A DNA stretch of 64,000 bases from a virus: the IMG/VR virus record IMGVR_UViG_3300046758_000611, positions 62,001 through 126,000 of that record, one strand, 5' to 3'. The stretch's first letter is position 1. Each line of letters starts with the position of its first letter. This document shows, piece after piece, positions 3,257-63,498 of the stretch. The translations under genes were made by a program, and so were the position numbers. The notes beneath the pieces are model-generated. The model did not search any database and was not told where the DNA came from. It saw nothing but the letters and a program-made list of their open reading frames with translations.

Positions 3257-6200
3257 CTAAGAATCGTATTTTATTAAAAAATTAATTGGATAGTTTGGTA
3301 TTATCTTGACAGGCCTTCCTAATTTTGCCACCATTGCAAGTTCCGCACCGTGATATAATCCAATTGTAGTTGCATATGGTGCTAAATAACTTCCTTTTCT
3401 ATCTTTTGCAGTATTTTCACGAAAATCAAGAAAATCTTGTTTAATTTTTCTTCCATAATTCTTTCCTGTTTTTTCATCAAGATATTTTATTATTTCAAAA
3501 GAAGTAGAACGTTTCGCATTCGAACTTTCATCAATTAAGTTTTTTGTTAAGTCGTTTCCACGTCGTCCGACAAAATATCTTGCCAATAAATGTGCGTCAA
3601 TTGAACTTACCACACCATCACCGTCAATATCCAACCCATCTGATCCTAGTTCTTTTAAACGATCAAGATTATTAATTATTTTTTGATATTCACTTTCTTT
3701 TATATCAAACTTAGAAGTAGAAGAAAATAATGAATTAATTAACAACACATCTTCAGATTCTGTCATAATTATATCATCGTTTGGATTATTAGTATTCTGC
3801 CCCTCTTGAAGTTTTATTGCACCCGGGACATCACCTCCGGATGGAATTTTTAAAACCTGACCCACATATAAACTAAGATCACTTCTTAAATTATTTTCTT
3901 TTCTTAGAACATCTGTTGTAACCCCTGTCACGAGTGCAATGTGAACCATAGATTCAACTCGTTTTACAATGTGTCTTATTTTATTTTTAATGAGAACAAG
4001 CATTCCTATTTTAAATGTTCTGTCGGTTATTACATTTCCATACGAATCTTTAATGTCAGATACATCTACCTCATACTGTCTTGCTATTGTTTGTAAAGTT
4101 TCTCGTCCTACTATATACTCATCTTCACTTGAATCCCGTTGAGTTGGATCAACAAGTGATCCCATTATATATTTGTAAATATTTGCGACATCTCGTATAT
4201 CGAATAAAGCATCTTCGTTTATATCAAATGCTATCTTTTCATAAGTTAGTGCAGTTGGATTTGTGCTAACGTTAAATTCATAAGGTTCTACTCTACACAA
4301 GATTTCGTTTTCATAAATTGTATGAGAACCTTCAAACTCTAGTTCAAATCCACGTTCACCTGTACCGGAGAATAATTCGTCAAATTGTTCAAATACATTA
4401 GATATAACGGCAATTCCATTCTTATAAAATACATTTCCCACATAAGTCTTTTTGTTATCACGAATTGCAGTTGATTCATATGCAATAACCTTTCCACCAA
4501 TATTATAGTTTAAATAGTCAAGTTGGTTTATGGAAAAGTTACCAAAACTTGTGGCAACCGTTCCAACATCACTGAATAAGTAAATTTGATCTTCTTGCAT
4601 GGTATAAAGTCCAGAGACTGGAAATTTTCCTTCTACTGGACATCCAGAAAACATGAAATCTGAACTTAGTGCAACAGAAGTACCTGCTTGCTTTCTTATA
4701 CTATAACTCTGCTTATAACTTCTAATGGAGTTTCTTACCACAGGTTTATCTTCGTCAATTGAATAATAATAAACAGACCCCTCTACTGAATTTCTCTTTC
4801 CATAATAAACAAAATCAATTTCACTTATATCACTTGTAGAGTCTACAAGTGAACTTATATTATTTTGATCGATGCTTACAAAAAAATCTATAAAAACCAA
4901 ATCGTTTTCATATACCAACTGTGTTTGATCTCTGTAAATTCCACTATTTATAAATCCAAACTCACTATTATATCCACTTACCGAGGTGTCTATAAAATTA
5001 GCATATACTTCAAAATCTTTTAAATAGTCCAACTCTGGTTTCAAATTTGTAATGTTAATTCTAAGTTTACAATCAATAGGAGTTCCACCGAGTAATTCAT
5101 ATGTAAAATTTGTTTTAAGTATATTGTTAGAAATATAAAAATCTGTTTCTGATCCGTCAGAACCCTGTGTGTAATCAGATATACTTACGTTTTGCAAATC
5201 ACTATTTATTTCAATGCTACTCGTTTCATTACACGGAGAACCAACAATAAAGTTATTTCCGAGTATAGACACAGAATTTCCAAATCTAGTGGAAAATACA
5301 AGTTCATCAGTTTCCTCTCCATATATCTTATCTACAAAAATTAGACGTCCACTTTCTACCTTAAATACATACGCAGATCCTGCGGTCAGTGATGTTGAGT
5401 CGTTTCTTTGATTAAACTGACGGTCTGTTGGATCTCCTATAATACAGAAAGACTCATTTGCATCCATACATGACATAAAAGAACTATCTATATTAAAATT
5501 ATATTCGTATATTGTTTTAACCAGTGTATCCCTTGTTTGTACACCGTATGGGGAAACTCCTGTTGATATAGATATAACCGATTCGTTTCCATATAATAAA
5601 CCAAATTTTTCAAGACCAAAGTAAATTTTATTTACACCAGGTTCTAAATCAGAAAAGGGTATTTGAATACTATAAAATTTTCCACCAAAAACTTCAACAG
5701 AGTCTACGAATGTTCCACCGTGGGTAATCACCCGTTCAATATTTTTATTTAATGGTTGATTAACTCTATATATAAATCCATCTGATATATCAGAGTCATC
5801 TAAGACTAAATTATTAAGAGTAACCGAGACAATTTCATTTTCATAATCCACATCAAATGTAGTATCAAAATAAGAAGAAACTTCGGTTGGTTCTAAGTTA
5901 TACTCAAACATACCCAAATTGCTTATTGTTTGTTCATGTGTGTATGTAAATTCGTTATTTTCATTCATGGACCAAGTAAATACCGCACACATTTTATGTT
6001 CCCGTGAACCTATAAAAATATTTGTTTGTGTAAGTTTTACCACTTCACCAAATCTTTTAAATGATTTTAACTCATCATTTTTTATTGCTATTACACCGAC
6101 TAAATCATACGTTGGATCACCAATTGCAAAATCAGGTGTTCGTTCATATTCACCTTTTGTTGATATATATTTATCATCAAAAGTTACAACATCTATTGTT

Positions 6201-9849: not shown

Positions 9850-10803
9850 TTATGTTGCAATAATTCTTCCTTTTATTTTTCTAAATTTTCCGTTGGCAAC
9901 TTTCCTAATTCCATCGTTACTTCCACCAGTTACCACAAATTTCTGTTCTTCTATTTTTTCAGAATTAAGCAATGCCATTGCTTGTTTTTCCGTAAAACCC
10001 ATATTCATTTTATCAATTATATTGTTTGCATAGTTATCAAATGCTTCAACATATTTGTCTGATTGCATATAATAATAATCAAGTCCTCCGTTTATTTTTA
10101 GAAAATCTTGTTTTGTGATTGGTTGTCTTTCTGATTCATCTATATATGAAGTTTGTTGTGTTGTTCTTCCTTCGTGAAAAAAATAAGAAACTTCGGATGT
10201 TGTGTGTTCATTCAGTGAAACATTTCCATAATCAAGTATATCGGAATAAAACATAACATTATCTATCATACCACAAAATCTACCAATTTCAATATTATTA
10301 AAAGTAACAAATGGTCGTGTGAATCCAGTATCATGTGATCCTACATACACATTATCCACAAACAGCCTGGTAATTCCCGAAGGATAAAAATTTACTACAA
10401 CACAATGCCATGTCTCTTTTGTGAGTTTAAAAAAGAAACTTGAATCTTCACCGGATGCAGGTGTATTCCAATTTATACCAAGTTCAAGTTCTTCTTCGTT
10501 TGCGTTTACTACAACTCCTGTTCTATTATCAGTTTCAGGTGACCTATTTAACATAATACCCGAAGATGGAGCACTTTCTTGATCAAGATAAACCCAAAAC
10601 GCCATACAGGCAGAATTTGTATACACACTACTTTGTTGAACTACTTTGATATATTCGTGTGTATTTGTTTCATCTTCACTTACGTTATTTTTTAATTTAA
10701 CTATATTTCTATACTCACGATCAGGACCACCCGTAAGTAAGTCACCTCCATATAATACCCCATAGTTTGAGGTGTTGACTGAGTTTATTATTTTAACTGC
10801 CAT
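9850..10803 (-). CDS. Virion protein with concanavalin A-like (LamG) fold
   Basis: A 317-residue protein. Residues about 60-210 read as a LamG/concanavalin A-like jelly roll: '[10 protein letters not shown]', then '[20 protein letters not shown]' and '[20 protein letters not shown]' are the usual strands of that fold. Such domains bind glycans, which suits a tail adhesin. Residues about 230-317 form a separate polar helical tail, including '[20 protein letters not shown]'. The start overlaps the end of the 3511-residue protein by 11 bases, so translation is coupled to it. The glycan target is unknown. Confidence 0.65.
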
Positions 10804-13800
10804 TTTGAGTAACCTTTCTTAGTATATTAGATCCTATTGTGGTTTCAAGTTCTCCTTCGTAACAATCTCCATTACTTCGTATAAATCTAATTTTTAGAGG
10901 ATTTACAAAATTTCTTGATACTTCGATGGTCATACCACCTTGACTAAAATCACTAACATTAAACGGACATACATAGGAACGGGGAATCGTTGGTTCGGTT
11001 GAAGTATCATCAAAGCATATTGTTCCATCTTCTGATGATGAAACTTTAATACCCAAGTTGCCAAAATCACCAACCAAGTTTTCTATTTCTAATATAACAC
11101 CCAACTGACCACAACAATCAATTGGAGTTTGTGTTGGAGTTGGAGTTTGTGTTGGAGTTGGAGTTGGGGAAGGTGTGATAGTTTGTGTGGGTGTGGGTGT
11201 GGGGGTGAGTGTTGGGGTCTGCGTGAGTGTTGGGGTCTGCGTGGGTGTTAGGGTCTGCGTAGGGGATGGTGTGGGTGTTGGGGTTCGTTCCAATCGTGTA
11301 AATGGATAATTAACATTAAATTCGGGAGACACAGGTAAAATAGTTTCATAACAGACATTATCGTTTGTCACAAATCGTATCAATGTTTCGTTTACTAATT
11401 TTGAAGGTAAAGAAAGTGTCAACCCACCATTACTAAAATCTTCTTCAACAAATGGACAACTATAAATTATTGTAGTTGGGTTGTTCGTACTTCGTTCTAA
11501 ATTGTTGTAACATAGTGTACCTGCAATAGATGTAGTTACAACTATTGATTCAGATTCAATTGTATTTTGGCCCTCATTTAAGTTTTTTGTTTTTAATAAA
11601 CCTTGACAACACTCATATGGTGTGGGTGTCTGTGTTGGGGTTTGGGTTGGTGTGGGTGTCTGCGTTGGTGTCTGCGTTTGAGTAGGAGTTGGTGTTGGTG
11701 TTGGTGTTGATGTTTGCGTTGGTGTCTGAGTAGGAGTTGGTGTTGGAGTTTCTGCCAAAGATGTGGGTGTTTCTAAAACAAATGGTGTGGATGTGTAGGT
11801 TGGTGTTTCTGTGGGAGTTGGTGTTGGTGTTAAGTCAACATTGTCAGTTTCTTCAAACTTAAAATAAAATTCAGGTTGTTTATCAAGAGATAACATCGAT
11901 GGATATTGATCTTGTCTAAGGGTATTTGTGGTAACAACATTTTCAGTTGGTTTGTCTTCGATAAACCAAAATGAATCGTGCGATGCGTTTGTACTTATAG
12001 ACTTTGTTCTAACGACACATGGAGTGTAATTCAAATTTCCGTTAGAATCAACGGTAGTAGTTGAATTGTTAGTTGTTGACTTACTGAATATATATCTTTT
12101 CTTCCTGCTTCTAATTTTAGGTACACCACTTTCTATGAAATCACCACGATTTCCAATATCCACAAGGTTGTATCCTGAAAATTCAGTTGTTATATCGTGT
12201 AATATATTATTTCGTATAATGTGTTGATTTAGATCATAATCCAAATCAAAATTAGAAATAGAAAAATTTATATCAGTTGGTAAATTATATCTTTTAGAAT
12301 TTGTATAATTTTGAAATCGTCTTATATTAAAATTAAATTTAACATTATACTCTATTTCTTTTATATAATCTGGAACATGAACTCTTGAATTATTTGTTGA
12401 AATGACATCAGATGCTTCCCATGACTTCTGTGTATAGTTTATGTTTCTCCAATTGGCACTTTTGCTTTTATTATTAATTGTATTATTTACTGATATTGTA
12501 AGTGGTGGAACAAAAAAGTCACTTCTGTTAAAATTATCATTAAAATTAAATTCATATTTTAAAAAATCACCCAGTTCCGACGAGAATATATGTGGTGATG
12601 ATTTCATACTAATTGGACAAATGTTTGTTTTTATATTTTCATATGAATTTTTTGTGTAACCAAAATAAAAAATAGAAGTTTTGTGGATCGTGTTTGACCC
12701 GGAGTCTTTAAATTGTGGTAATAGAAAATCTTCTCCCAAAAATAAATTTTCATCAAATGACCAAAATATATCAACAGATTTTAAGTCAACATTTCTAATT
12801 AAATTTTTGATTTGAATTTCATTTTCCTCGTTTGTTTGTAAGTTTGTTAAAATTGTTTCCGTAAAATATTCACTCGTTTGATTTACAAGTGGGTGGGGTC
12901 TAAAGCTATCAAGTTCATATCCCCTCGGTTCTCCGTATATATTTTTTTTGATTTTATATGTGTAAATAGCAATCGGTAAAAGTGGTCGTTTATATGAAGT
13001 GTATGGCAATTTTTGTGTATTTGTTGTTTGTACTGTGTAAATTGGTTGTCTTTCTCCGACACACCCATCACATACATTATCAACGATATATCCAAATTTT
13101 AATTCATCGTCTTCAAATTTACGCAAACTTGCGTTTTTCCAAGCAAATGCGTTTTCTTCGTTTTCATCAAAGTTATTAATCTCTGAATTTGTATTTGAAT
13201 ACCCGACTCGTAAGTTAAGTAGTCTTTTCTCACAATTGGTAGCAGAATTTTCAAACATAACATAATAAGAACCCTCGTCCCTCGGATCATCGTTTACCAA
13301 TTTCCATGAAAGATTTAAATTATCATAAAAAATATACCAACCATTTACATTTTTATACAATGGATATTCATTTAGGAAATCACTGGTTTTCATGTAAAAT
13401 CCATCAACACCATCATACCTACCTCGTATATTTCTATTTGAAATAGTTATATATGGTAATATTTTATCTTCATTCAATTTACGATTAGTTAATATGCAAA
13501 ATGTTTTTGTTTTATCATCATGATATTCTCCATATGCAGGTAAAATTAAATTCAAAGAACGTACAGATACTGTCCATGCCAAGTTTTTGTTACTTATCGT
13601 TTGAAATGTTTTGAATAATCTTTTATTGGGAATCAAAACAAAAGAATCACCAGTTGCCACAAAATTTGTTTTTGATTCAATATTAATATCTTCGTCTGAT
13701 TTATATAAATCCTCAACGGCAATAACATCTGACTCATAAACCGACTCGTGGATTGGTGCATGAACTATTGTACCAACTTGAAAGTCAAAATTATTGTTGC

Positions 13801-16800
13801 TTTCATTTAAAGATGAATCAAACGTTGTAGTAACATTGCTCGAATTATTACGTATCCAACTTTTGTTTCTAGTCTTGTCGGCATTACTTATTACCCATTG
13901 CCACCCCTCTTTATATATAATCCACTCTCCGATGGGTTTTTGTCTATAATAAATACCAGACTGAGAACTTATTTTTTCATATTTTCCATTTACCCCTTCT
14001 CTGCTTTCTCGGAAACCAGATACCAAAACATCACCCTCCGAGTTAAAAACATTCGTATTTTTTGGAAAATAAAAATCACCCCCACCACCGTTTAGTGTGC
14101 TAAATTTAATAGGCCTACTTGATGCCTTTTCTTCATCAAATATGTAAACTAAATTTTCGTTTTTAAAATATTCTGATTCAGACTGGCCACTTCCGAGTGG
14201 GTCTATATTAGATAAAATCCACCGATCAAACAACACACTATAAAAAACATACCACCAAGTATTTTTATTATTTGTGAAAACTTCTTTTCCATTGAATGTT
14301 TCATACCCACGTATATATGTTCCATTTGCAGAATACATTACTCCGTGAAATGATGAAATTTTAAAACCAGAATATTCTCTTTCATTTAGTATCAAGAAAA
14401 AATTCTCAATTCCTCTCTGTGTGTATGTGTAACTGTCGTTGGAGAGTTCGTTTATTTCTATTTTATAGTTAGTGTACTCATCATTCATGTTCAACATAAG
14501 TTTACTGTCTAATACATCTTCTGAATATATAACTATTTTTTCACTTATCTGACTTTCGTTTTTACTAAACTCTCGTATGATACCCTGATCAAAAAACAAA
14601 GAATGCTTTGCTCTAAGAGCAAAATATACAAATGAATCATTTTTAGTTGCGGTTGATTTTAATATCTCGTTAAAATCACTATAGTCTGTTGGTTCGAAAA
14701 CTATTTTGTCAGACTCCGACTCTATGAGAGATTGTTCCCATTTACTATCACAGTTTGAAAGAAAATTTTCACTCTTTCCATCAATAGTTTCTGTTTTAAA
14801 TTCATCAAGATAGCAAACAAAATAAAATTTATTATCATACGAAACTCCCGCATCTGTGTATGTGTTTATTGTAAACTCAAAGTAACAAGTTCTAAGTCCA
14901 TCTTCGTTTAATAAGACATTGCTTTTTGCTTCCTCAAGTGCCGTTTCATTTAAAACAAGATTTTCATTTTCAGAAACCTCATTAGTTAAGTTATCTAGCA
15001 AATCTTGCTCACCTCCTCCGTATGAAATTGGTAAATTTGTTGGTAGTTTATAGTCTCCAATTGAATTTTTAGAGTTAGGAACAAACCCACTTCCATACTC
15101 TACCTTCTCAGGTGAATCACTTTTTAAAAAGGGTGTTGTAAATTTATATATACGATTTTCAGATAATGCATTTAAAAATTTATTACTATATTTTATGTTG
15201 TGTCCAGTTAGTGTTCCTTTTTTATTTAAAATAAGAGTTATATCGAGTAAATCAACATCTGGTATTTGTGTGCTAATTTCTTCAATTTGACCAATCTTCC
15301 AAATAAAAGAAACTTCATTTTTGATTTGAATTTGTTTATACTCGTTTAGTAATTGTTGTGAACAAGCTAGTAACTTTAAACTTCTAATATTATTTGTTTT
15401 AAGTTTGATTGTAGTCGCAATGTCATAATCTAACATAAAAGGTTTTTTAATGACATCGTTTACCATCACATCATACGAAGATGCATATAACCCAGAAGAA
15501 GTTCGTATTCCATTTTCATAAAAAATACTATAATCAGATTTTCGTATCCTAGCATCTATTTGTAGTTTTTCAGTTAGTTGCACGGTGTGTTTATTCTCAC
15601 TTGGAAGTGGAATAAAATCGTAATAAGAAAAATTTTTAAATCTACCGGTTGAGTTTGCATTGCTCTGTATTACTGGTACTAAATTAGAAGCACGAAATCC
15701 TAAGTTAAAATCAACTATATCATTTATACTTAACTCACCACTCGAATTTACCCCATCCGATGCTATATACGGAGAATTACAATCATAATAAGAAAATTCA
15801 TTAAAAACTTTACCAAGAACAACTAAATTAGATACATATCCGGTAAATAATCTTCCTATAAATTTACCAGACTGAACATTAATATTTTCAAACGAACCGT
15901 CAAATATTTTTTTATTATTTTCTGTATACTCGTAGAATTTACCATTATCATTTAAATCGATGTACCTACCATAAAACTCTCCATATATTCTGCAATTCAA
16001 TATCCCTCTAATATAACCCCCACCAACACGATTAATTTCAGAAGAGTGAGTATTTATTTGAAAAATTCTGTCATTTTTTATGTTTGTTGCTACGGTTGCT
16101 CCTCCATCCGAGTTTACATAGAATGTACTTATTGACGATGATACCTCCATTGATTGTAGTGGTGTTTTTACACAACCACCATCAAACTCACTACACATAT
16201 TAGAAAATAATACAGGTAAATTATCTACATTATTATTTGCAGTATCATTCTTTTTTTCTTTAATCCAATAATCCGCATCATCAAATATAGAAGGTTCTTG
16301 CAAGAACTCAGGATTTTTATTTATCAACATCCAACAATTATATGATTTACTAAAAAATATAAACCAAGTATTTGATTTGTTTTTGAATAATGGTTTGTTA
16401 TTTATATTTTTTTCAGAAGTGTATTCACCATTTGCTGAATAAAAACCAATGTACTGATCCCCTATTTTGGTATTTTTTATAAAACCTGAAATTGTTAATA
16501 CAATTGAATTATATACAAATGAATTTGTTCCTTTATTTTTATTTGAATTAAATAAATGCAAATTTTTGTTTATTTTTTCTACTTTATATTCATTTCCATC
16601 CGATGAATATATACCATTGTTTATAAATGTTCCAAAAACTCGTTCATCAAAGTCATTGTCAGGTATTATATTTCCTGTATAATTGTCGTTGTATGCATTT
16701 CCTTTGATTCTATCAATTGACATACTACTATCGATACTTAAAATATTTTTATCTCCTGGTTTAAATTTTACTTTAGAATCTTCGTTTGCGAAATTTGCAA

Positions 16801-19800
16801 TATTTTTTCTATCGTAACTTCTTGATCTTAAATTAATTTGTTTTAATTTCTCTATACTTTTGTTCGTTTTTGTTCCGTCTATAATAGTAGTTTCAATTAC
16901 ATTTTCAACTTTGGGTGATTTTATTTTATGTCGTTCTAGAATACTTGGTTCTATCAAAAGACCAGAAATTAGTCTTGTTCTTGCTGGCACCAACTTTTCT
17001 ATATTCTCAAAAAACGAAGCATCTACATAGGTTTTTAATATATTTAGAAATGCTTGCCAATCTATCTTACCAAACCCTTCTTTATAGAACACTTTTCTAA
17101 ATTGTTCAAATTTTTTGTATTCTTTATTGTATAAATCAAGTGGGTCTCCGATATATTCACCTATATCGTAGTTTCCAAAAAACCTTATTATTTCTCTGTT
17201 TAATATATCAGTTGGACTTATAGTGCATAAAACCGTATTGTTATCAATGGTTACTCTGTCAAGTTGCTTTCTTGTTACACTTTTTCTTGGATTTAAGACT
17301 CCTGTTCTTTTTTGTTTTTCATGCCTGATTTTTGCATTACTGAATGCCTGCGATCCGAAACTTGGAAGTCTTGCATACTGAACCGCTGCACTTCCTTTAA
17401 AGTCAAACGGATATTCTGTGCTTGTAAAGTTATATGCTTTTATATACTCCACCGAACTCGCAACCGCAGAGTTTTCTAGTTTTCCGTATCCACCGTCCGT
17501 GGATTGGGTGCTTATATCATGTGGTAAATCAAAGTTTAACTTTACAAACAAATTATCAACAACCAATTTAGGGTCATCCAAACTATATCCTTGGTCGTAA
17601 AATATATGGTCATTAAAATTATCAGAAGTAATTTCTTTTTTATATAATCTTAATTTATCAAGTTCTCCACAAAACAAAGAAGAAGAATAATTACCAACAT
17701 ATAAATTATTATCATCAGTTTCGTGTAAATCACTACAAAAGTTCTGATATTCATAGTCTGTTATTTTTATACTAGAAATTTCGTTCAAAGTAACTTTTCC
17801 GTCAATTTGCTTTCTAATGTATGTTTCTATAAAATATGATGATAGTTTGGTATCATCTTTTACTATTTGCAAAAGAACATGAATGTATTCATCTGTGAAA
17901 AGATATACAGGATTTTTTTGTTCGGTTGGTGTATATATTTTATCATTTAATACAAACGAAGAACCTATATTTTTATATTGAAAATAGAATCTTCCGTATT
18001 CATAATTTTTATTTGAATCAAATTCAATGCAAAATTTCCATGTATTTGTTTCTAATAGTATTATGTCACTTACACTACCAGAATTTAGTTTTTCTGCTTC
18101 TATGATGTTTTTTACTTGTAATTCATTTAATTTAAAGCACAACTCGATGGATTTTATTTGATGTGAGTTCCATTCTATCTCTAGATATTTTGACGAGTCT
18201 AGTCCACCAATGTCATTATTAAACACTAAAGAAAAACTATAAGAATCAAATTCAAACCAATTATCACCACTTGATGTTTCGGTTGAAAGTCCACCATATT
18301 CTTTTATACTTAAGAAGTGATTAGGAAGTCCATAGCACTTCATTAATGCACCGATTGACTTTTCAGTACCTATGTGTTTTATTATATAAGGTAGGTTATT
18401 TAGTATACGTCTCCATATTGTCGATCTTCTTGTAGAAATCAACGATGACGTACTATTAACCTCTGCACTTGCATCATCACCAGAGTCATCTTCACCCGTA
18501 AACGATAATCCTAATGATGACAACATATATTGTACTAATTTGTTTGGAATTCCTCTATCTGGATGGTTAGATGCGTTTCTAACTTTTCCCATGTTGTCTA
18601 TATAAGACACAAGTGTGTCAAACTGCACTCCAACTGAATTTAGAAAAAGTAAAAAGTCATTGTTGTCTTCATTTCGTGTGAGGAATTCAGGTATGCTATT
18701 TACAAGGGAAGCATCATTTTTATCATCGTAAGTTTTTGCATCTTTTGCTTGAAATAAATACCACTGATAAGTCCCTGTTGATACAAAATCCTCGATTTTC
18801 TCAGGAAGAATCTCTGGTAGTCTTTTCAAAACACCTTCGTGATTTTGAATGCTTTCGTATCTAACCGAAACAACTTCATCTTTAAATGAGTTACTACAAT
18901 TAGAACTTAGTTTAATTTCGTTACTTATATAACTCAGTGTTGAAATTTTAAACCAATCTGCGTTAGCAGTTGTTCTTTCTTTATTCGAAACTACCCAACG
19001 TTTGTGTGTTTCGTTAGTTTCTTCCTCAAATACTACTTCGTAGAAAATGTAAAAGTTGGAAATTCTATGCTTGAATTCACGTTGATTGTTAAAAAACCCA
19101 ATTTGTTCATATGTACCGTTTGCCCAACCAAGAGAACCAAATGTATCTTGGTTTTTGGCTATACCACTTACCTCTAAATTATTTGTCCGTGGCCAGGTCG
19201 TTGATACTTCTGATATATATGTGGTATATGCAATTGATGTTTGCTCTTTATTTTCATCCTCGTATGTCCATAGCAGATTTGAAATAATTGGAGTGCTACT
19301 ATCTGTAAATGCTTCATCATTTATTGAAGATAAACGCACAACTATTTTATTTGCTGTGGAAAATGAAAAGTAAGGATTTGGTGTTTCACTTTTAACAGAA
19401 CTTGACTTGTCATGTTTTTTTCGAAACCACCTTCCTATTTGATTGCTTATTTCAGATGCAAGTGCATGGGGTTGCATTCCTTCGTATATACTAATATCTC
19501 CGTAGTTTGGTGTCTTTTTGGATGTAAACTTTATTGTAATAAAGTCATTATCAGGTAGATTTATTTCAAATCCATATATCTGCGGAATAGACTGATTTCT
19601 ATTAATCGTTGTCTGTTCACTTGGTTGGTTTGTTATACTATCTAAATTATTAAATTCTATGATCGCAGTTGCATCATCACTTTTATTTTCAAAAAACAAA
19701 TATCTTTCGTATCCGTCTAGTTTTGCTAAAATTTCACTTTTTGTTTTATTTTCTTTTGAAATTTCAAGTGTTCTAAGAAGACGTATCGAGTTTTCAGAAA

Positions 19801-21328
19801 TTTTTGCTTCAATGTTACCTATACTTGTTTCGTATTGTAAATTGTATATTTCTTTTTCTATATTTTTTATCTTGTGAACTATAACTGAGAAGTTTGTCAT
19901 TTTGAACAAAAACGAGTCAATTCTAGATTTTGCAGAAGAGTATTTAACAAAATTATTAAAATCTGAATAATCTACATTCAAATTTAAGTCAGATGATGAT
20001 GATGTATTGAAGTATTTTGCTACATCATCGGTTACATTTTCAATTAAATCTTCTTGGTTATACTCTTTCGTTCCACGTGATGTACTTACTAAAGTTAAAT
20101 CTGGTTGTCTCAGTTTTTTTGTTGGGACAATTGATGTTTTATTCAGTATTGTTGTAAAATACAGATCATCTGAATAATATAATCCACTTATATACATTCT
20201 TGTATTTATTTCAATGTCTTGGTCAAGTGGTTTGGCAAGTTTAATTACAATTGGAGTATATGCAGAATCCGATACGACCTCGGTTGACTTTGCGTATTTT
20301 ACAATAGGAATTCCATTACCAAATCCAAGATTAATTATGTTATTTAAAAATCTATCAAATCTTCTTGCGTAAACTTCATTTACATAACCCACATCATAAG
20401 AATACATTATCAAATCACGATAAAACAAAACGGAAGTATCGGATGCTGGCAATAAACTTAGTGCCGGGTGTTTTGAGATTATATAGTTTACTGCAAGTGA
20501 ATATTCTTCGTAGAAATCTGACTCAGCAAACACATTGTTGTATTTTGTTAAGATTAAGTTGCGATATAGTTTTTTACACTTATCATAAAACTTATTTATA
20601 TCAATTAGTAAATCATTTTTACTTAAGTTTAATGATTTTGTAAGTTCGTTAAATTTTGTTTCAAAGTCCGCTATCTGCAACTCAAGTTCATTAAATATAT
20701 CTGAAGACGAGTAGTTTATTGTTTTTATAAACTTTTCGGTTTCATAAAAAATATGAGACACTACAATTCTTCTGTTCGCAAAGTTTTCAAATTCAAACCC
20801 CAGTGCAACATCCTCTGACTTATTTGATGCACGGGATGCTTCTGGTATTATCTTAATCTCGTTTCTACTTGGAGATATTTCTTTAATTATTAGAAAAGAA
20901 CTTGACTCAGACGAACCAACTATATCATTACGCATAGATATACCAACTTTATATGCACTTGGAGCAGTTGCTCCAAGTTTTTTCAGTTGGTCAGTAAATG
21001 ACAATATTAATTTTCCATCTTTTACGAAATATCGTGAACCAATTACATCTATACTCCCTTGTACATTATCATCGTTATAATCAAAAAAATTAAAGTTTAC
21101 TTTTTTAAAGTCATCATCACCAGGAATAGTTGACCAATACAATAAATCATTAGAAGTAGAGTATACCGAAAACTCAACTATATCCTTCGAGGATTTTCCA
21201 AAAATAAGTTTTGTTGGTTTTTCGTCTAATACAATATCAAGTAAACTTTCGTCTACTACATACCCACGTTGAAACGGTTCGTTTTCTTTAATATTGGGTT
21301 CTTTAATATGTTGTATTAACGAATTCAT
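10793..21328 (-). CDS. Giant 3511-residue tail protein with repeated adhesin-like domains
   Basis: The largest gene here. Residues about 885-1010 resemble the P2 gpI-like tail proteins of other phages ('[20 protein letters not shown]', '[17 protein letters not shown]'). Residues about 1015-1290 look like a concanavalin A-type fold ('[16 protein letters not shown]'). A module of about 45-50 residues with the pattern G-x-Y...W-x-[IV]-[FY]-Y...W-x-[LIV]-x-N recurs near 733, 1628, 2331, 2444 and 2634. Near the C-terminus, two Thr-Pro/Gln-rich linkers (about 3165-3236 and 3347-3401) each precede a similar Cys-rich domain. It is probably a baseplate-attached fibre or tip protein, with receptor binding the likely role. 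TATAAATA only 5 bases before the ATG is probably chance. Confidence 0.7.
11124..11286 (-). repeat. Second Thr-Pro/Gln linker-coding tandem repeat
   Basis: Imperfect 6-base units coding Thr-Pro, Thr-Gln and Ser-Pro in the giant tail gene. The repeat lies between the two Cys-rich C-terminal domains and ends just before the last one (CCGQLG). Length changes in multiples of six would keep the frame. Confidence 0.7.
11620..11832 (-). repeat. First Thr-Pro/Gln linker-coding tandem repeat
   Basis: Imperfect 6-base units coding Thr-Pro and Thr-Gln, interrupted by a short insert ([11 protein letters not shown]), just before the first Cys-rich C-terminal domain (ECCQGLL). It forms an extended, probably flexible spacer in the 3511-residue tail protein. 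Confidence 0.7.
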
Positions 21329-21931: not shown

Positions 21932-23380
21932 TTATGATATAATTCTAAAGTTTCGTTTATCTATGTGAATTTCTACATCTTCGTCAATTTCTGTTTTTAT
22001 GTGAAATGTATAAAACCTCCCCACAGCAAGACACCCAAAGTCAAAATTAAAATAGTGGCCGTTTGAATCACACGATATTTTTGTATATTCACCGAACCCA
22101 ATAACAACCTCAGATGTCTCTGAGTCTCTAACTGAATAAAACATATTGTTGGTTACAAAATTATCAAGAGAGTAGTCTGACTTTGAAGAAAATGTTTTTA
22201 TTGGTCGTTTGCTTCTAATCCCAACTCTTATTTTTTTTCTTTCAGATTGTTTATATTCTTTTTTAATTGTTTTTATTATTGGAATAAACTCGTCAGAAAC
22301 GATCTGATTTATATTAGATTTTTTTACTAAAATTTTTTCTGTTGGTTTTCCGAAGGTACCAGTTGTGTTGTTTTCGTCTGAACATTGTTTATTCGTGAAT
22401 ATATCCGTATCTGTTATTGATGCGGATTCAAGACTCGTGGATTCAAGTGAACTAGATTCAATGGAACCCGACTCAATGGAACCAGATTCAATGGAACCCG
22501 ACTCAATGGAACCAGATTCAATAGATGATGATTCTATACTTCCTGAATTAAGTACACCAGATTCTAATGAACCAGAATCAAGTGTATCAACATTAATTGA
22601 CATATCAGTTTTTGTACCAAGTGAATCTGTATTATGACAATGTTCTGTCGTACACGATATGCTTTTTATATATACTTGTTCACATGGTTCAAACTTGTAA
22701 TCATCGTATAATATTTCTAAATAAGGGTAGTAAATCGTATTTGTATCCTTCGAGAAAAATTGTATAGATGAATGTGCGTCTATTGTTTCTTCTATAAATT
22801 TTATTAAAAATCCGTTGTTCTCGATATCACCAACCAACCATGATTTTACAATACTTGTTACATCAACCTTTACATCAGAGAATGCACCTTTAAACTTAAA
22901 TATCAGATCGGTGTCATCGGTGTTAGTTCTTTGTGGTATTTCGTTGTGTTCGTAGAACTCACCACCCCCCAAATAGTTGGTTGTGTTTGCATCTTGATTC
23001 CAAAAATTTTTACCAAAATCTGCGTATCTCCAACTTGCACCTTTGTATGAAAAAGATGATGATTTTGTGTCTTGGTATCGTCCAGTTCCTTCGTCCCAAT
23101 ACTTTTTAACAGGGTATACACCAAGAGAGTCACCCATCGATAACTCAGACGAATTTGCTACTTTTAAGTTTAAATAAAACTCCGAATTTATAAGTTTGTT
23201 TTTATTCGCCGTGAACAATTCATTATCGAACTCAATTAAAATTCTACTTAAAACAAGTCCATCGGTGTCTGTGTTAATTTTTTTAAGTTCAAGAATCTCA
23301 TCGTATCCAGAGTTGAGTTCAAGTAACCGTCTGTGTTTATACAAAGTGGTATCTTTGGTTGGATATATAAAATAAATCAT
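21932..23380 (-). CDS. Virion protein: DNRLRE-like domain plus SIESG pentapeptide-like repeats
   Basis: A 482-residue protein. Residues about 1-230 fit the DNRLRE (TGF-beta propeptide-like) beta domain found in secreted and surface proteins: a first strand with 'KDTTLY', then 'WDEGTGRY', and near the end 'VTSIVKSWLVGDIENNGFLI'. Residues about 265-325 are eleven or so five-residue units of the type S-[IL]-E-S-[GS], which would form a pentapeptide-type quadrilateral beta-helix. Residues 350-482 form another domain with a conserved-looking end (IHIDKRNFRIIS). The start overlaps the gp6-like gene by 4 bases. A baseplate or fibre role is likely given its place next to gp6. Confidence 0.65.
   Translation of the reverse strand: MIYFIYPTKDTTLYKHRRLLELNSGYDEILELKKINTDTDGLVLSRILIEFDNELFTANKNKLINSEFYLNLKVANSSELSMGDSLGVYPVKKYWDEGTGRYQDTKSSSFSYKGASWRYADFGKNFWNQDANTTNYLGGGEFYEHNEIPQRTNTDDTDLIFKFKGAFSDVKVDVTSIVKSWLVGDIENNGFLIKFIEETIDAHSSIQFFSKDTNTIYYPYLEILYDDYKFEPCEQVYIKSISCTTEHCHNTDSLGTKTDMSINVDTLDSGSLESGVLNSGSIESSSIESGSIESGSIESGSIESGSIESSSLESTSLESASITDTDIFTNKQCSDENNTTGTFGKPTEKILVKKSNINQIVSDEFIPIIKTIKKEYKQSERKKIRVGIRSKRPIKTFSSKSDYSLDNFVTNNMFYSVRDSETSEVVIGFGEYTKISCDSNGHYFNFDFGCLAVGRFYTFHIKTEIDEDVEIHIDKRNFRIIS
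22456..22515 (-). repeat. Two perfect 30-bp tandem repeats inside the SIESG-coding region
   Basis: Two identical 30-base units (22456-22485 and 22486-22515), each made of two 15-base sub-units that differ slightly. They encode four SIESG units. Degenerate 15-base copies extend the array on both sides (about 22411-22590). The perfect identity points to a recent duplication. Confidence 0.8.
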
Positions 23381-25341
23381 AAAACTCGTCCTGTTATGTC
23401 CCTGGTTGGGTATTTTAATTCAAAAATAGATGGGTCTTTCGATGGATAGATTGTTTTGTTCATAGTTGCAGAATTTATATCATATTCATTTTCAGAGTAA
23501 TTGCCATCGTTTATATTAAGATTTTTAATTATAAGTTTTGTAACATTTTTTACACCAGAAACCTTTGACATCTCAACTTCTAGTGTACCGGTGTCAATTG
23601 GTTGTGATATTTGCCATTTATCTATATCAAAAAAATCTGCTATTATTTCATTTAATGAAAAAAGTATTTCTTTTTTATTAAAGTTCATATAAGAGGTTAC
23701 TTCGTATTCTACTCCTATGTTAATAATAAAAGCATTTGTCATGTTTATTCCATCGGTTAGCATTCTATAGTTGGAAAGATACTTACTTAAATTTTGATAA
23801 ACAAGATCATTTGGGGTTATTAGTTTCTTGTTTTCGTCAAAACTCAATACATACAAATTTACTGCAAACGGATTGTTTATCTCTCCATACACACGATTTA
23901 GTTCTTGTGGTTGAACCTCCTGATTAATTGAATAAGAATTTTTGACTATATCCGTTTGTGAGAATGAGTCAAGAGAACCATCTTTACTTACAAATGCTTT
24001 TGCTATACTTCCAAGTCTCGGTGGCATACTATATGCTCTTATTACATAATCTTCACGGGTGACTGCTCTATTTTGCGAAGAAAAACTAGAAAGACCTTTG
24101 ATTCGTATTTCGTCAATTGACTCCTCACCACGACCACCCAACGCAGGATCTGGATTATTCACCCCAACTGTATTTTTGATTGTCTCCAATACTCCCTCTT
24201 CACCCTCTGATAAAAATGCGTTTGTTTCATTATACTTAATTTGGGTAATAGTTGTAAGTGTATTTGATTTCAAGTTAGACTCGACACCACCACCAGAATA
24301 ATACTCGATTGTAAGTGTTGTGTTTGCAGGTGCTTCTCCATATGTATCAGACTTCAAGAAATTTGCGGGATCGTAAGACGATTCAAATTTTTTTGTTGAT
24401 TTTAATGATGATCCAACAGTGTTGAGGGATGGAATTACAATCTCTTCGTCAATTTTGTCCTTTCCTGCACCAAATTCTAAGGTTGTGGTGTTATCACTAT
24501 TTACAAATGTTGAAAATCGTTTCGATGTTTTAATATATCGCAATAAATACGGTACACTTAATGATAAATTGCTTGTGTTTGGACTCGTTTTATCATTGTT
24601 TGGTTCTTCGATCAAAATTGTATCTTGTGATAGATAATCAACTTCATAGTATTTGTTTCCAGTCGAATCTATTACTGAAATTATTTCGAGTACATCCGTA
24701 TCAGGAAGTTCAACTTGAAAAAACTCACTTGCTTCTCCAACTGTTATTGTGTATGTTTTTCTGGTGCCGGCCGATGCCATTACCTTTTTGTTGAATAAGT
24801 AAAATTGAGGTTGACCAAGTTGGTCTCGTTGAAATACACTTATTTCGGTTGGTGAACTTGCTTCGTCAAGACCAAAGTTTACAGGTTCTGTTGTTCTAAA
24901 AATAGTTGCCGAACCTCCAGTTGAAATAACCTCCATACCCTCATCAATGTTTAAAGCAAATTTCATGTCGGGTTCAACTGTGCCGTCTTCTGAAATTTTC
25001 GATGGTATTAGTTGAAATATATCCAACATGGTTGTGGCTGCCACACTTGCCTTTGGTTTATATCCCAAGTAATTTGCAAGAGTAATTACATTTTTTCTTT
25101 CACTTGCATATTGTAAAAACCCTTCTTTAAATTGATAGTCTACATAGTAAGATAAAACATCACCCACATAACTTACCAAATCTACAAACATCATTCCAGT
25201 TGAGTTCTCACTGAAGTCTTTGTATGTTTTGGAATAATATGTCTTAATATAGTCGATTAAGTTAGACTTAAAACTATCAAAGTCTTTGCTTAAATAGTTT
25301 ATTTCTTTTTTTCCGTCTTGGATGGTGTTTAAATTATCCAT
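23377..25341 (-). CDS. 6: Baseplate wedge protein, T4 gp6-like
   Basis: A 654-residue protein, against 660 for T4 gp6. The N-terminus (about 12-115) matches gp6 and baseplate J-type proteins: 'YLSKDFDSFKSNLIDYIKTY', then 'GMMFVDLVSYVGDVLSYYVD' and 'ASERKNVITLANYLGYKPKA'. Later 'GGRGEESIDEIRIKG' and 'RAVTREDYVIRA' (about 400-430) are typical of the J-like core. gp6 dimers form the ring that joins the wedges around the hub. A ribosome site AGGA lies 8 bases before the ATG. The gp25-like gene ends 4 bases upstream, the same gene pair as in T4-like baseplates. Confidence 0.85.
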   Translation of the reverse strand: MDNLNTIQDGKKEINYLSKDFDSFKSNLIDYIKTYYSKTYKDFSENSTGMMFVDLVSYVGDVLSYYVDYQFKEGFLQYASERKNVITLANYLGYKPKASVAATTMLDIFQLIPSKISEDGTVEPDMKFALNIDEGMEVISTGGSATIFRTTEPVNFGLDEASSPTEISVFQRDQLGQPQFYLFNKKVMASAGTRKTYTITVGEASEFFQVELPDTDVLEIISVIDSTGNKYYEVDYLSQDTILIEEPNNDKTSPNTSNLSLSVPYLLRYIKTSKRFSTFVNSDNTTTLEFGAGKDKIDEEIVIPSLNTVGSSLKSTKKFESSYDPANFLKSDTYGEAPANTTLTIEYYSGGGVESNLKSNTLTTITQIKYNETNAFLSEGEEGVLETIKNTVGVNNPDPALGGRGEESIDEIRIKGLSSFSSQNRAVTREDYVIRAYSMPPRLGSIAKAFVSKDGSLDSFSQTDIVKNSYSINQEVQPQELNRVYGEINNPFAVNLYVLSFDENKKLITPNDLVYQNLSKYLSNYRMLTDGINMTNAFIINIGVEYEVTSYMNFNKKEILFSLNEIIADFFDIDKWQISQPIDTGTLEVEMSKVSGVKNVTKLIIKNLNINDGNYSENEYDINSATMNKTIYPSKDPSIFELKYPTRDITGRVL

Positions 25342-31249: not shown

Positions 31250-32020
31250 TTATTTATTATCATCTTTTTTTTCTTTAAATGGAACATTTCCGAGGGTACT
31301 TCCTGGAATATACCTTTTTTTGTATACAATTTTCCCTTCGTATTTTTTATATGCATCCATGCTTGTTTTTTTCCAAGGAACATAATAAGGTCCTCGTGTG
31401 GGTGGTTCTGGTTCAACTTCCTGGGTGTCGTACATTGGGGTTGATGTTGAATTTACATCTTCTTTTATTTTATTTTTTATTATATAACTTTCAGTTTTAC
31501 TTGAAAACATAGTTGGACTTGGAGTAGGACTTGGAGTTGGAGTAGGAGTTGGTGTAGGGGTGGGACTTGGAGTTGGAGTGGGAGTTGGACTTGGGGTAGG
31601 AGTTGGAGTGGGAGTTGGTGTAGGAGTTGGTGTAGGGGTGGGACTTGGAGTTGGAGTGGGAGTTGGAGTGGGAGTTGGTGTAGGGGTGGGACTTGGAGTT
31701 GGAGTGGGAGTGGGAGTTGGTGTAGGAGTTGGACTTGGGGTAGGAGTTGGACTTGGGGTAGGAGTTGGAGTTGGAGTTGGACTTGGTGTAGGAGTTGGTG
31801 TTGGGGTGGGGGTAGGGCTTGGAGTTGGAGTGGGGGTTGGGGTAGGGCTTGGAGTTGGAGTGGGGGTTGGGGTAGGGCTTGGAGTTGGAGTGGGAGTTGG
31901 ACTTGGTGTAGGAGTTGGAGTGGGAGTTGGACTTGGGGTGGGAGTTACTTCAATTACATCTTCTATAAAATCACCTTCTTCTTGGAATTTATCAGCAAAG
32001 GGTAGATTATCTATCCAATT
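31250..32020 (-). CDS. Frameshifted extension: Thr-Pro linker and C-terminal tail
   Basis: This frame is -1 relative to the membrane protein gene (32011-33105). It is open from a stop at 32074 to a stop at 31250. No ATG, GTG or TTG lies between that upstream stop and the repeat, and the only ATG (31510) comes after it. Entered by a -1 shift at the A10 tract, it would add 256 residues: an acidic stretch ([17 protein letters not shown]), 145 residues of Thr-Pro/Ser-Pro, and an 86-residue tail starting MFSSKTES and ending in a polar region with '[19 protein letters not shown]'. The whole product would be about 618 residues. The shorter reading, an 86-residue protein from 31510, is possible, but its ATG is embedded in the repeat frame. 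Confidence 0.55.
31511..31945 (-). repeat. Tandem 6-bp repeat array coding (Thr/Ser-Pro)n, about 435 bp
   Basis: About 72 imperfect copies of a hexamer (ACTCCA and variants, minus strand), all kept in one frame as Thr-Pro or Ser-Pro. It shares character with the Thr-Pro linkers of the giant tail gene but is purer and longer. Copy-number change by slippage would alter linker length without breaking the frame. Confidence 0.85.
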
Positions 32021-33105
32021 TTTTTTTTCGGCAACTCTTCTCCTAGAGTCATTTTCCCACCTACCATAATATTATATGCCAATACAAGTGCAACTGCAAC
32101 AGGGTCAAAAACTAAAACAATTACAATAATAAACCACTTTACAACTTGGTCTACTGGCATTCCAAATGATTCTGCTATAAAACGAAAACTACCAATATCA
32201 GTTGCACGAATTCCTTCTTTTTCTTTTAATATCTCTGCTTGGTTTTCTTTTATTTTGTCGTATTTATCTTCAATAGTGGTTACATTATCCAGGTCGTTTG
32301 TTGTATCACGAAGACCATTTACTTTTTCTACAAATTTATCATATTCACTTGAAATTTGATCATCAATTTTGGCAAGAGCATCATTGTATGATTTTGTTGC
32401 AGAAGTTTCTTCGTCTGTTATTGCTGATAATGATTTTGCGATAGAATCTCGCTCAGGTTGTTGTGTTATCCTTAGTTCTTCTATTTTCTTTTTGTTATTA
32501 CTAAATAACCCACCTGGTTTTGATTCTAATTCACTTTTTGCTTTATCCAATACCGCAAGACGATCCATAAATTGTTGTCTACGAAATCCTCTTGCTTCGG
32601 TGTCTGTTTTGTTTCTATTAGCAAGTGCTTCCTGTCGTTTTCTTCCGTCTGCCACATAATCGTCATAGATTTTTTGAAAACCTACTATTGTTTCAGTTTT
32701 TTTATCTTCTACTGTTACATCCGTATTTTTAAGTGTTTCAATTTCAGTTTCAATTACTACTATTTCTTTATTTAGGGTTTCTATGTTATTTTCATGCATT
32801 TCCACCCTTGATCGTGTGTCATCGTAAGCATCACTTAGAAATCCGTAAATGCCCAACGAGGTTATTCCAATCAGAACCACAACTGCAATTGTACAATACC
32901 ATTTTAATATCCTTGGTATTCTTTCCCAATAACGGTATAAAAATGAAGTCATTGCTAATTTTCCTGCTTCAAGAACTCCCGCCATTACCATGGCTGCGAT
33001 AGCCGCACCTGCAAATAATAACCCAATACCTCGCACAGAAAAGAAAGCAGCCGTTCCTGCTACTGCCAGTGCCAACCCACCTATAATCGCAGTAAATACT
33101 TTCAT
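32011..33105 (-). CDS. Multi-pass membrane protein with long coiled coil; probable zero-frame product of a frameshift gene
   Basis: A 364-residue protein in its own frame. Predicted membrane segments lie at about 4-25, 28-50 and 70-95 ([17 protein letters not shown]), then a long charged coiled coil at about 100-300 ([20 protein letters not shown] and on), then a fourth segment near 328-355 ([20 protein letters not shown]). It ends in [10 protein letters not shown], where the KKK codons form the A10 tract. A -1 shift there would add the Thr-Pro linker and tail at 31250-32020. GGGAG lies about 15 bases before the ATG, and a TATTTATA motif 48 bases upstream follows the Hsp20 terminator. Function is unknown; a role in the host membrane is suggested by topology. 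Confidence 0.7.
32017..32029 (-). other. Candidate -1 frameshift (slippery) site: A10 tract
   Basis: On the coding strand the zero-frame reading is CCG AAA AAA AAA ATT GGA TAG. The ten consecutive A residues (32019-32028) include the slippery heptamer A AAA AAA. A -1 slip would continue as AAT TGG ATA GAT and on into the Thr-Pro array. A long A tract also permits transcriptional slippage, and it is a common place for sequencing errors. No clear downstream pseudoknot was identified by eye. Confidence 0.55.
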
Positions 33106-33725: not shown

Positions 33726-33803
33726 TTTAGTTTTCCTTTTTTTTTAGTTACAAACCCCGTTTTGGGCATTTGTCGAACAACCTCAAACGAGCATTGTTCT
33801 ACT

Positions 33804-45609: not shown

Positions 45610-46241
45610 AACCCTCAATTAGTTTTGCCATAACCACACACAATGAATTCATTCAGTTAAAAAAATCTATTGATATTATAGAGAGATTTAAAGATGATTT
45701 GGATGAGTTATTATTTTTAGATGATTTTTCTGACAACGACAAAACATTGAAACTTCTTGAAAGTAGAAACACATTTAAACGTAAATTTGAAAAAGATTAC
45801 TCGGATCATAAGAATTATTTAAATTCATTATGCAATTGTGATTATATTTTACAACTAGACGGTGACGAAATATTAAGTCAAAAACTTATCGCAAATGTTA
45901 AAAATATAATAAAAGATAATTCAGATATAGATTTATTCTATATACCCAGAGCAAACTATGTTCAGGGTATAAATAAGAGTTATCTAAAACGATGGAATTG
46001 GAAAATGGATAATAAAAAAAGAATTAATTATCCTGATTTTCAAGGCAGACTTTTCAAGAATAATGAAAAACTATATTGGCATCGTTCCGTGCATGAAAGA
46101 ATTACGGGAAATAAAAATTTTAGCAAGTTACCATTAGATAACGATCTTGATATTATTCACGAAAAGCATATTCAAAAGCAAATCGCAAACAACAACTTTT
46201 ATTCGGAAAATTACAATCGTGACTGCACAAGAAAACAATAA
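45606..46241 (+). CDS. GT2-type glycosyltransferase, short
   Basis: A 211-residue protein with a GT-A fold. Features are 'SFAITTHNEFIQLKKSIDII' at the N-terminus, an acidic 'LLFLDDFSDND' and a D-x-D-x-E in 'YILQLDGDEILS' (about 80-92), followed by 'FQGRLFKNNEKLYWHRSVHE' typical of the acceptor side. It is short for the family (usually 250-350), so the C-terminus may be reduced. It overlaps its neighbours at both ends by 4 and about 23 bases. Confidence 0.7.
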   Translation: MKPSISFAITTHNEFIQLKKSIDIIERFKDDLDELLFLDDFSDNDKTLKLLESRNTFKRKFEKDYSDHKNYLNSLCNCDYILQLDGDEILSQKLIANVKNIIKDNSDIDLFYIPRANYVQGINKSYLKRWNWKMDNKKRINYPDFQGRLFKNNEKLYWHRSVHERITGNKNFSKLPLDNDLDIIHEKHIQKQIANNNFYSENYNRDCTRKQ

Positions 46242-47892
46242 AAAAAAATTAGGCATAGTAACTTGTTATTTTAATCCACGTAACTATCTAACAAAATTTA
46301 TTAATTTTCTTGATTTCTATTACAAGTTAAGAAAATCAAAAAATGTAGATATTATTGTTGTTGAGTCTTGTATGAGTGATTCTGTTTATACATTAAAAAA
46401 CACTATACATAACAATCTTATATCATTGAATACAAATTCCGTATATTGGCAGAAAGAAGAATTGATAAATATAGGACTTAGAAAACATAAAGACACCGGT
46501 TACAAAAACTTGTGCTGGTTGGATAGTGATATTGAATTTTTAAACGATAATTGGGCAGATGTGATAATAGAAGATCTAAATGAGTATGATATAGTTCAGG
46601 TATTTGAGTATAGTCACGAAATAATTGACACTAAAGCAAACACAATAAAACATAACTCCTATATAAAAAAAATAAAAGAGGGTAACAACCATCCATTTAA
46701 AAGAATCGGTGAACTTGGTTATGGTTATGCTTACAAACGAACATCTCTTACCGATAAACTTTTATATGAAAATGCGGTAGTTGGTGGTGGTGATTTTTTA
46801 AATATATTACCATTTGTAAATATGAATACCACAATGAATATCACAGAAGATAGATATTTTAAAAACGCAAATATAGAAATGATAGATGATTACATGGATT
46901 GGTATGAAGATAAATCTAAATTAAAAACAAGTTACTCAAAAAACGAAATAAAGGTTGCGTACCACGGAGATAGAAAATTCAGAAACTATTTAAAACGAGA
47001 GCAGATTTTAAAAAACTTGAATTTTTGTCCAAAGACTGACCTTGAAAAAACAAATAATAACTCACTTAGACTTCTTAAAAATAAAAATGTAGAGAATTAT
47101 TTGAAAAAATATTTCAAGGAAAGAAATGAGGATTACTTTAATGATAATTTACAATCAAAAAGATTCTTTAAAAAAATAATCAACAGAGTGGCGTACAATT
47201 TAGATGTAGAAAATATTGAAACCGAACCTATGCTACGCACGGTTGAAAAAATAAAAAACCACGAAAATAAAGTACAAAAAAATAATAATATAGATATAAA
47301 ACTAAATAGAGTATGTGTTTGGTCTAAAAATAATATTAAAGAGATAAATGTAAGTTCCTTTGATTTTATGCAAAACATAATATACGATAAATCAGATAGA
47401 CATCAAATAAATTCTATAAAGTGCAATCGTAGTGATAGATTTCCACATACATATTTAAAATTCATTATTAGTAATTACGAAAATCTTCCAAGTGTGGTTA
47501 TATTCTGTAATGATTATATTGAACAATCGTTTATATTAAGTACGATCAGCATACTTAGAAACATACCAAACGATGAAAACTTAAAGTTTACACAAATCAT
47601 AGAGTGCAAACAACCAGTGCGATTGGATACATCTGGTCATATTTTAGGACTTTACAAAAAAACCTCTGTAAAGAAAAGTAAACATACATTCCAAGAATGG
47701 AATCGTTATCATTGTAATAAAGAAAAGGAAGGTAGCGATTTTTATGTTTATCCAATTTTTTATTTAGGAAGAAACATTATACAAAACAAAAAAATAGAAT
47801 ACTACGAAAACCTGTTAAGTAGTATATCGTCAGACTCACTTACCGAAGACGAACTTTATCTAAACCGCAGTTGGGACAACATATTTCAATGA
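46219..47892 (+). CDS. Two-domain protein: GT-A glycosyltransferase plus DUF3431-like domain
   Basis: The frame is open from 46147, but a GTG at 46219 (VTAQENNKKKLG) gives a sensible start that overlaps the previous gene by 23 bases; the exact start is uncertain. The N-terminal part begins 'KKLGIVTCYFNPRNYL' and has 'NLCWLDSDIEFLN' (D-x-D) about 90 residues later. After residue 330 comes a second domain with 'FPHTYLKFIISNYENLPSVV', which resembles the DUF3431 motif 'HTYL..I..NYD.LPD...F', ending at 'RSWDNIFQ'. Such fusions are found near polysaccharide genes. It could build and then modify one glycan; the specificity is unknown. Confidence 0.55.
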   Translation: MTAQENNKKKLGIVTCYFNPRNYLTKFINFLDFYYKLRKSKNVDIIVVESCMSDSVYTLKNTIHNNLISLNTNSVYWQKEELINIGLRKHKDTGYKNLCWLDSDIEFLNDNWADVIIEDLNEYDIVQVFEYSHEIIDTKANTIKHNSYIKKIKEGNNHPFKRIGELGYGYAYKRTSLTDKLLYENAVVGGGDFLNILPFVNMNTTMNITEDRYFKNANIEMIDDYMDWYEDKSKLKTSYSKNEIKVAYHGDRKFRNYLKREQILKNLNFCPKTDLEKTNNNSLRLLKNKNVENYLKKYFKERNEDYFNDNLQSKRFFKKIINRVAYNLDVENIETEPMLRTVEKIKNHENKVQKNNNIDIKLNRVCVWSKNNIKEINVSSFDFMQNIIYDKSDRHQINSIKCNRSDRFPHTYLKFIISNYENLPSVVIFCNDYIEQSFILSTISILRNIPNDENLKFTQIIECKQPVRLDTSGHILGLYKKTSVKKSKHTFQEWNRYHCNKEKEGSDFYVYPIFYLGRNIIQNKKIEYYENLLSSISSDSLTEDELYLNRSWDNIFQ

Positions 47893-63283: not shown

Positions 63284-63359
<76 letters not shown>

Positions 63360-63408
63360 AATTATTTATATATAATGTATATATACATATATGTGTATAT
63401 AATAAAAG

Positions 63409-63498
63409 TGGCGGAGGATGCAGGATTCGAACCTGCGGAACCCGTAAGAGTTCAATGGTTTTCAAGACCACCGCCTTAAACCACTCAGCCAATCCTCC
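63409..63498 (-). tRNA. tRNA-Ser (TGA)
   Basis: Cloverleaf with a long variable arm as expected for serine. Anticodon loop CTTGAAA gives anticodon TGA; acceptor GGAGGAT/ATCCTCC, discriminator G and encoded CCA. Confidence 0.95.

Follow-up and report, generated by a model that had tools for sequence, protein, structure and literature searches.

What does an uninterrupted run of ten A residues do at the end of a phage membrane protein gene, and does the long open frame behind it belong to the same gene? In the stretch of 64,000 nucleotides analysed here (the window), which belongs to a 170,221-base virus record, a 364-residue frame on the minus strand ends P-K-K-K-I-G-stop, and the ten A's comprise its three Lys codons and the first base of the ATT that follows. 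In the -1 frame no stop occurs between 32071 and a TAA at 31252-31250; this open stretch passes through 145 residues of Thr/Ser-Pro repeat, and its earliest ATG, GTG or TTG lies past the repeat, at 31510 (an ATG). The original prediction had described this arrangement, and we confirm it in each of these particulars. A mechanical listing of open reading frames shows two items, the 364-residue protein and an ORF of 86 aa, and misses the link between them. The features of the junction are as follows.

32011 to 33105, minus strand: ORF of the short product, 364 aa, ending P-K-K-K-I-G-TAG, with hydrophobic helices at the N-terminus, then a long coiled coil and then a C-terminal hydrophobic helix
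32040 to 32044, minus strand: SD-like AGGAG, 11 nt upstream of the tract and 13 nt upstream of A_AAA_AAA, a possible ribosomal stimulator that is not conserved throughout the relatives
32019 to 32028, minus strand (a T run on the plus strand): A10, the candidate slippage tract, with CCG before it and TTGG after it
32011 to 32013, minus strand: 0-frame stop TAG of the short product, two codons past the tract (PKKK[I/T]G-stop in relatives)
31946 to 32020, minus strand: first 25 codons of the -1-frame tail
31511 to 31945, minus strand: Thr/Ser-Pro repeat linker of 145 codons, its length and repeat unit differing among relatives
31250 to 31510, minus strand: C-terminal segment of the tail, 86 residues, which holds the conserved tip
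31253 to 31444, minus strand: codons of the tip, STPMYDT...GPYYVPWKK and a further 11 residues, followed by the tail stop TAA at 31252-31250

Counted from the tract, the tail comprises 25 + 145 (Thr/Ser-Pro) + 86 = 256 residues, and with 362 residues before the shift the long product comes to 618, as the original prediction had estimated. On the plus strand, a Gly-Val repeat ORF at 31560-32069 is the antisense of the Thr/Ser-Pro repeat and presumably no gene.

Homopolymers are error-prone on some sequencing platforms, and from the window alone a sequencing or assembly error, with a true tract of nine or eleven A's and a single frame, is not excludable; the original prediction had left this explanation standing. 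Relatives were collected by a protein search of viral contigs, which gave 39 loci (L001-L039), 36 of them reaching the tract and three (L028, L034 and L037) ending short of it. An alignment search (best 80 of 354 relatives) added L041-L044, and a search with the tail tip added L115. L040 is the window itself in plus orientation and was left out of the counts; L001 is identical to the window, and the two may be the same virus. The 41 contigs that reach the junction belong to uncultured phages, come from 37 metagenome datasets and contain 27 distinct upstream regions. The tract is exactly ten A's long in all 41, down to 64-66% protein identity, and all 41 have both the 0-frame stop two codons past the tract and the -1-frame tail. 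The scan accepted any tract of 6-14 or 8-14 A's bounded by fixed flanks and reported its misses, so other lengths within this range would have shown; tracts of nine or eleven A's, which would have turned the locus into a simple single frame, number 0/41. With the 0-frame stop kept and both frames under selection as described below, we regard the error as excluded by the relatives for every practical purpose. A tracts also mutate through replication slippage, and the length of the tract could in principle shift within the viral population and toggle the tail. The absence of any other length from the 41 assemblies argues against such phase variation as far as majority alleles go, which are all that assemblies show, and we consider it highly unlikely.

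The tail frame is likewise kept, being intact to the limit of the contig in 40 of the 41. The exception is L043 (a contig also recovered as L128), in which the frame is broken within the Pro-Thr repeat; its close relative L044 has an intact tail frame, and the break in L043 is either an assembly error or the mark of a decayed copy. The bases flanking the tract are nearly constant, with CCG before it in 39 contigs and TTGG after it in 37. The two remaining contigs on the upstream side (L041 and L042) carry CCC, so the G preceding the tract is not fixed. The four on the downstream side (L041-L044) carry CTGG, and the C replaces the 0-frame Ile with Thr and is silent in the tail frame, where Asn is unchanged. 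Judged by these codons, it is the tail frame that is kept in L041-L044.

Synonymous change points to constraint on the tract itself. The 32 full-length genes among L001-L039 reduce to 23 after dereplication (<97% DNA identity), a set that leaves out L041-L044 and with them the two CCC sequences. In these 23 the P-K-K-K-I codons show zero synonymous change, the lowest window in a gene whose mean pS is 0.556. Fourteen Lys columns are invariant across the 32 full-length sequences; the three in the tract are always AAA, and ten of the eleven others mix AAA and AAG. The Pro adjacent to the tract is CCG in 32/32, CCA being the commonest Pro codon of the gene. This silence is local, with pS at 0.30-0.34 in the 12 columns before the tract and at 0.46-0.60 in the tail frame after it.

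The first codons of the tail are constrained at the level of protein. Among 26 distinct tails read in the -1 frame, pN/pS is 0.056 for codons 1-8 and 0.229 for codons 1-20, and the DNA of codons 1-20 gives 0.83 and 1.85 when read in the other two frames. These values bear on the possibility of a separate tail gene, whose translation would begin past the 0-frame stop, either by re-initiation or at a start of its own. In the window the ATG at 31510 could open the 86-aa ORF after the repeat, and 26 of 40 relatives have some ATG, GTG or TTG in the tail frame ahead of the tip or of the contig end. However, tail codons 1-11, which include the eight on which protein-level selection is strongest, contain no such codon in any of 40 relatives, and 8 of 31 complete tails lack a start codon ahead of the tip altogether. 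The first codons would thus be translatable only as part of a fusion, barring a non-standard start.

The distribution of the tip leads to the same view of a separate gene. A search with the tip alone found 48 loci, of which 33 lie on contigs that extend upstream and 15 on contigs that end within or just past the repeat. Every one of the 33 has the A10, and the tip lies in the -1 frame in 32 of them, L128 with its broken repeat being the exception. None of the 33 encodes the tip apart from the tract, and a separate tail gene is accordingly very improbable. The original prediction had named a tract of nine or eleven A's and a separate tail gene as outcomes that would refute it, and the relatives show neither. 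Beyond these loci, the tip had no match in phage records (single query), and a search of genome contigs gave one pattern match and zero confirmed ones. Fourteen columns of the tip are invariant among 16 chosen sequences; its model (pLDDT 61.2) contains one helix and no confident fold. Across 31 loci the whole tail measures 181-357 residues (median 218), and the linker varies in both length and repeat unit. Two tails hold an extra domain of about 115 residues before the repeat (L030:5173-5514 and L032:5161-5511), with many Trp and several Cys; it has no Pfam match at E 0.01, and the L032 copy has no PDB sequence match at E 0.1.

Comparison among the relatives, then, establishes the A10, the two frames and selection on the tail frame at the level of sequence, and it supports the two-product gene of about 364 and about 618 residues that the original prediction had joined at the A10. 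That the junction is real and conserved and is best read as a programmed slippage gene is well supported. Very probably the site is programmed, whether by polymerase or by ribosome.

The original prediction had named both ribosomal and polymerase slippage, and the evidence between them, which is indirect, leans to the polymerase and does not settle the choice. The ribosomal route would be programmed -1 frameshifting on A_AAA_AAA, in which tRNA-Lys would slip on the final two Lys codons and give the same 364- and 618-residue products, perhaps aided by the SD-like sequence upstream, as such a sequence assists frameshifting in dnaX. Since the heptamer stands in the right frame in 41/41 contigs, ribosomal slipping is possible in every relative. 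Nor does the exact length of the tract decide between polymerase and ribosome, because any three AAA Lys codons with ATT or ACT behind them necessarily make an A10; an exact A10 is equally compatible with ribosomal slipping. The SD-like sequence is present as AGGAG, GGGAG or GGAG in 18 of the 27 distinct upstream regions, and together with the modest synonymous dip over the 12 columns before the tract it fits an SD stimulator and counts against the polymerase. However, one further region has GGGG only, and in 8 of the 27, the most divergent among them, the 25 nt preceding the CCN contain no SD-like match, for which reason we rejected an SD as the general stimulator. A conserved downstream stem-loop was rejected as well. 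Single-sequence secondary-structure folds of the 70 nt downstream of the tract in the 27 distinct relatives, the region being incomplete in L019, lie close to mononucleotide shuffles, with z from -2.5 (L025) to 1.7, and no shared structure was seen among them. A conserved stimulator of either kind, the mark of ribosomal -1 frameshifting, was thus not found at the site, although the available account of one proven E. coli IS site likewise gives it no established stimulator (PMC4066793).

Transcriptional realignment would be expected at an A or T homopolymer of at least about nine bases, such as the A10, in a genome whose other genes avoid such runs, and both are observed. Within 50 ORFs of the window there is a single run of nine or more A's, the junction tract itself, against 12.0 expected from 1000 synonymous-codon shuffles whose minimum was 6. 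Two other 9-base runs in the window (33737-33745 and 46240-46248) lie outside ORFs or at a stop codon. In 122 flanking ORFs from 16 chosen relatives, which are partly orthologous to one another, 2 such runs are seen and 15.0 are expected (200 shuffles, minimum 7). An A10 is found in a glycosyltransferase-like ORF of L008 (L008:1966-2568) and an A9 in L044. Neither was accepted as a recoding site, as the other frames close within 12 codons (in L008 after 2 and 10), and both count against the polymerase in that they sit where slippage would only cost.

The shorter slip motifs weigh on both sides. A_AAA_AAG is not avoided in the ribosomal slip frame of the window (15 seen, 9.6 expected), which speaks against the ribosome, the motif being tied to high frameshifting efficiency in E. 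coli (PMC4066793). Against the polymerase, A_AAA_AAA itself falls short in the slip frame, with 24 seen where 41.4 are expected, though its depletion is about as strong in the two others (29 against 46.4 and 17 against 30.5). Loss of A7 in every frame, set beside the unavoided A_AAA_AAG, counts for the polymerase. The relevant part of PMC4066793 similarly describes a shortage of A7 in E. coli genes whichever of the three frames is considered, with transcriptional slippage or indel mutation as suggested explanations. The part of Baranov et al. (PMC1088944) drawn on here finds avoidance to be evident from nine nucleotides in a large share of bacterial genomes; it adds that avoidance of long A runs may equally stem from replication slippage, which would be indistinguishable and likewise weakens the case for the polymerase. 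Because no stimulator is conserved throughout, and because runs of nine or more A's are avoided and A_AAA_AAG is not, we favour RNA-polymerase slippage from A10 to A11 as the somewhat more probable route on these comparative grounds. Ribosomal frameshifting has a real chance of being the right account, though one well short of even. The 27 distinct natural upstream versions allow the two to be tested against each other.

The protein that carries the tract belongs to a family with members in large phages, at 24-43% identity in a 28-row alignment. Thirteen phage records matched and six were retrieved, including Pelagibacter phage Mosig, Flavobacterium immuto, Stenotrophomonas RAS14, Microcystis Mel-JY01 and Salicola SCTP-2. 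Fourteen residues are invariant in all 28 rows (S23, G26, L30, F31, E46, K49, T82, S83, G85, G88, L90, D334, P335 and N345), and the invariant Glu, Lys, Asp-Pro and Asn lie in or beside helices of the membrane core. Hydropathy places hydrophobic stretches in the N-terminal part, as far as residue 93, and another at 313-354, with an acidic coil between them, and the AlphaFold2 model is nearly all helical (mean pLDDT 76.8, pTM 0.41). The loop between helices 2 and 3 has a net positive charge in 28/28 members. By the positive-inside rule this loop would place the coil in the periplasm and the C-terminus, with any tail, in the cytoplasm. Counter to this topology, the first 15 residues past the last helix are not consistently positive.

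Searches for a named relative gave little. Compared with the PDB, the model had a best E of 0.014 and no match at 0.001, and five viral matches reached 1e-3 or lower, no function being named for any of them. Sequence searches of Pfam, PHROGs and the PDB returned coil-type or weak matches only, the strongest in PHROGs being to phrog_5105, of unknown function (4/28 members, best E 1.2e-5). DUF4407 (PF14362) combines N-terminal transmembrane helices, a coiled coil and a C-terminal transmembrane helix, a layout like that of the window protein, but the match is not significant: four of the 28 members match weakly (best E 0.11) and the window protein does not match at E 1, so membership was rejected. 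Rz-like spanins (phrog_739) have one N-terminal transmembrane helix and a periplasmic coil. Matches to phrog_739 are weak (9/28, best E 1.4e-4; residues 72-154 of the window protein, E 0.0057), and we rejected this assignment because the several N-terminal hydrophobic stretches and the C-terminal one in the family do not fit.

More distant members of the family carry tails of another kind. In 46 distant loci (L045-L090), C-terminal extensions continue in frame beyond the last helix. Many of these C-termini end in motifs particular to a clade, such as NPDLADPN in one clade and G[YF]FSF (GYFSF, GFFSF or similar) in L077-L084, and their recurrence suggests tip-like docking motifs across the family (L046-L084). 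A frameshifted Pro-Thr tail past the stop was found in none of 30 distant relatives examined. Four (L045, L059, L079 and L084) have a start-less other frame of 40-53 codons past the stop with few Pro or Thr, which we take as chance. Since distant members are tailed in frame and, in the 30 examined, lack a frameshifted tail, a move of the tail out of frame seems to have taken place in the clade with the frameshift. A tail out of frame would become optional for each molecule, which may in turn yield a mixed complex of tailed and tailless subunits. The presence of the family, with in-frame tails, in distant large phages offers a lead to an inner-membrane function at the host.

In the wider window, the gene at 23377-25341 encodes a baseplate wedge protein (phrog_10646, E 9.7e-19), which points to a contractile-tailed phage, and its best matches among phage records, at 35-41% identity, are in Microcystis phage Mel-JY01, an uncultured 484-kb phage and Flavobacterium immuto phages. 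A gene order common with Microcystis phage Mel-JY01 was considered and rejected, the two neighbour pairs compared having no similarity. Other features of the window, on the minus strand, are a 3511-residue ORF with no Pfam match at E 0.01 (10793-21328), a 1472-residue protein with FG-GAP, LysM and dockerin-like matches and weak endolysin matches (3257-7675), and a cluster of seven tRNA genes (63284-63960).

With polymerase slippage as the favoured route, the locus could work as follows. Most transcripts would carry A10 and give the 364-residue inner-membrane protein. In a fraction of them RNA polymerase would add one A, and the resulting A11 would join 362 residues in frame to the 256-residue tail, made up of a short conserved segment, the Thr/Ser/Pro linker and the conserved tip. 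Both products would then be made, and the phage would have a mixture of tailless and tailed subunits, possibly within one oligomer. The tail would lie in the cytoplasm, where the linker may serve as a flexible arm, holding out the tip to a docking partner. We put forward as plausible, if a little short of probable, that slippage meters a membrane machine, a fixed fraction of whose subunits receives a cytoplasmic Pro-Thr docking arm, and that an ancestral, always-tailed design was in this way turned into a mixed one.

A literature search, with most subscription papers outside its scope, found no description of this gene or of A-tract recoding in a phage membrane protein. If the reading proposed here is true, a phage membrane protein joins the genes that obtain two length variants by way of a long A tract. 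Phages are already known to make minority C-terminally extended products by frameshifting, as in the G/GT tail-assembly chaperone and Ig-domain genes, which PMC5009743 describes, in the part concerned with them, as ribosomal; those products are tail chaperones or virion proteins, whereas the protein here is a membrane protein. Insertion sequences provide another likeness, in that a conserved long A run joins two frames in the elements treated in the relevant part of PMC1088944, but these are insertion-sequence genes. In Shigella, transcriptional slippage in spa13 and mxiE likewise gives a longer C-terminus, the spa13 product being extended in 25-30% of cases according to the corresponding part of PMC5009743, in other proteins and organisms and in non-phage genes. 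The closest parallel in layout is tssM1 of Citrobacter rodentium, in which a long A run (A11) just before the stop of an inner-membrane protein gene undergoes transcriptional frameshifting at about 20-25%, adding a C-terminal domain and giving two lengths of protein (PMC4256274, in the part relating to this site). Unlike the window gene, tssM1 is a bacterial secretion gene whose C-terminal domain meets an outer-membrane lipoprotein, and its slippage was shown by experiment, whereas the case in the window is made by comparison. Both forms of TssM1 are needed, and so, in the same part of that account, is their ratio.
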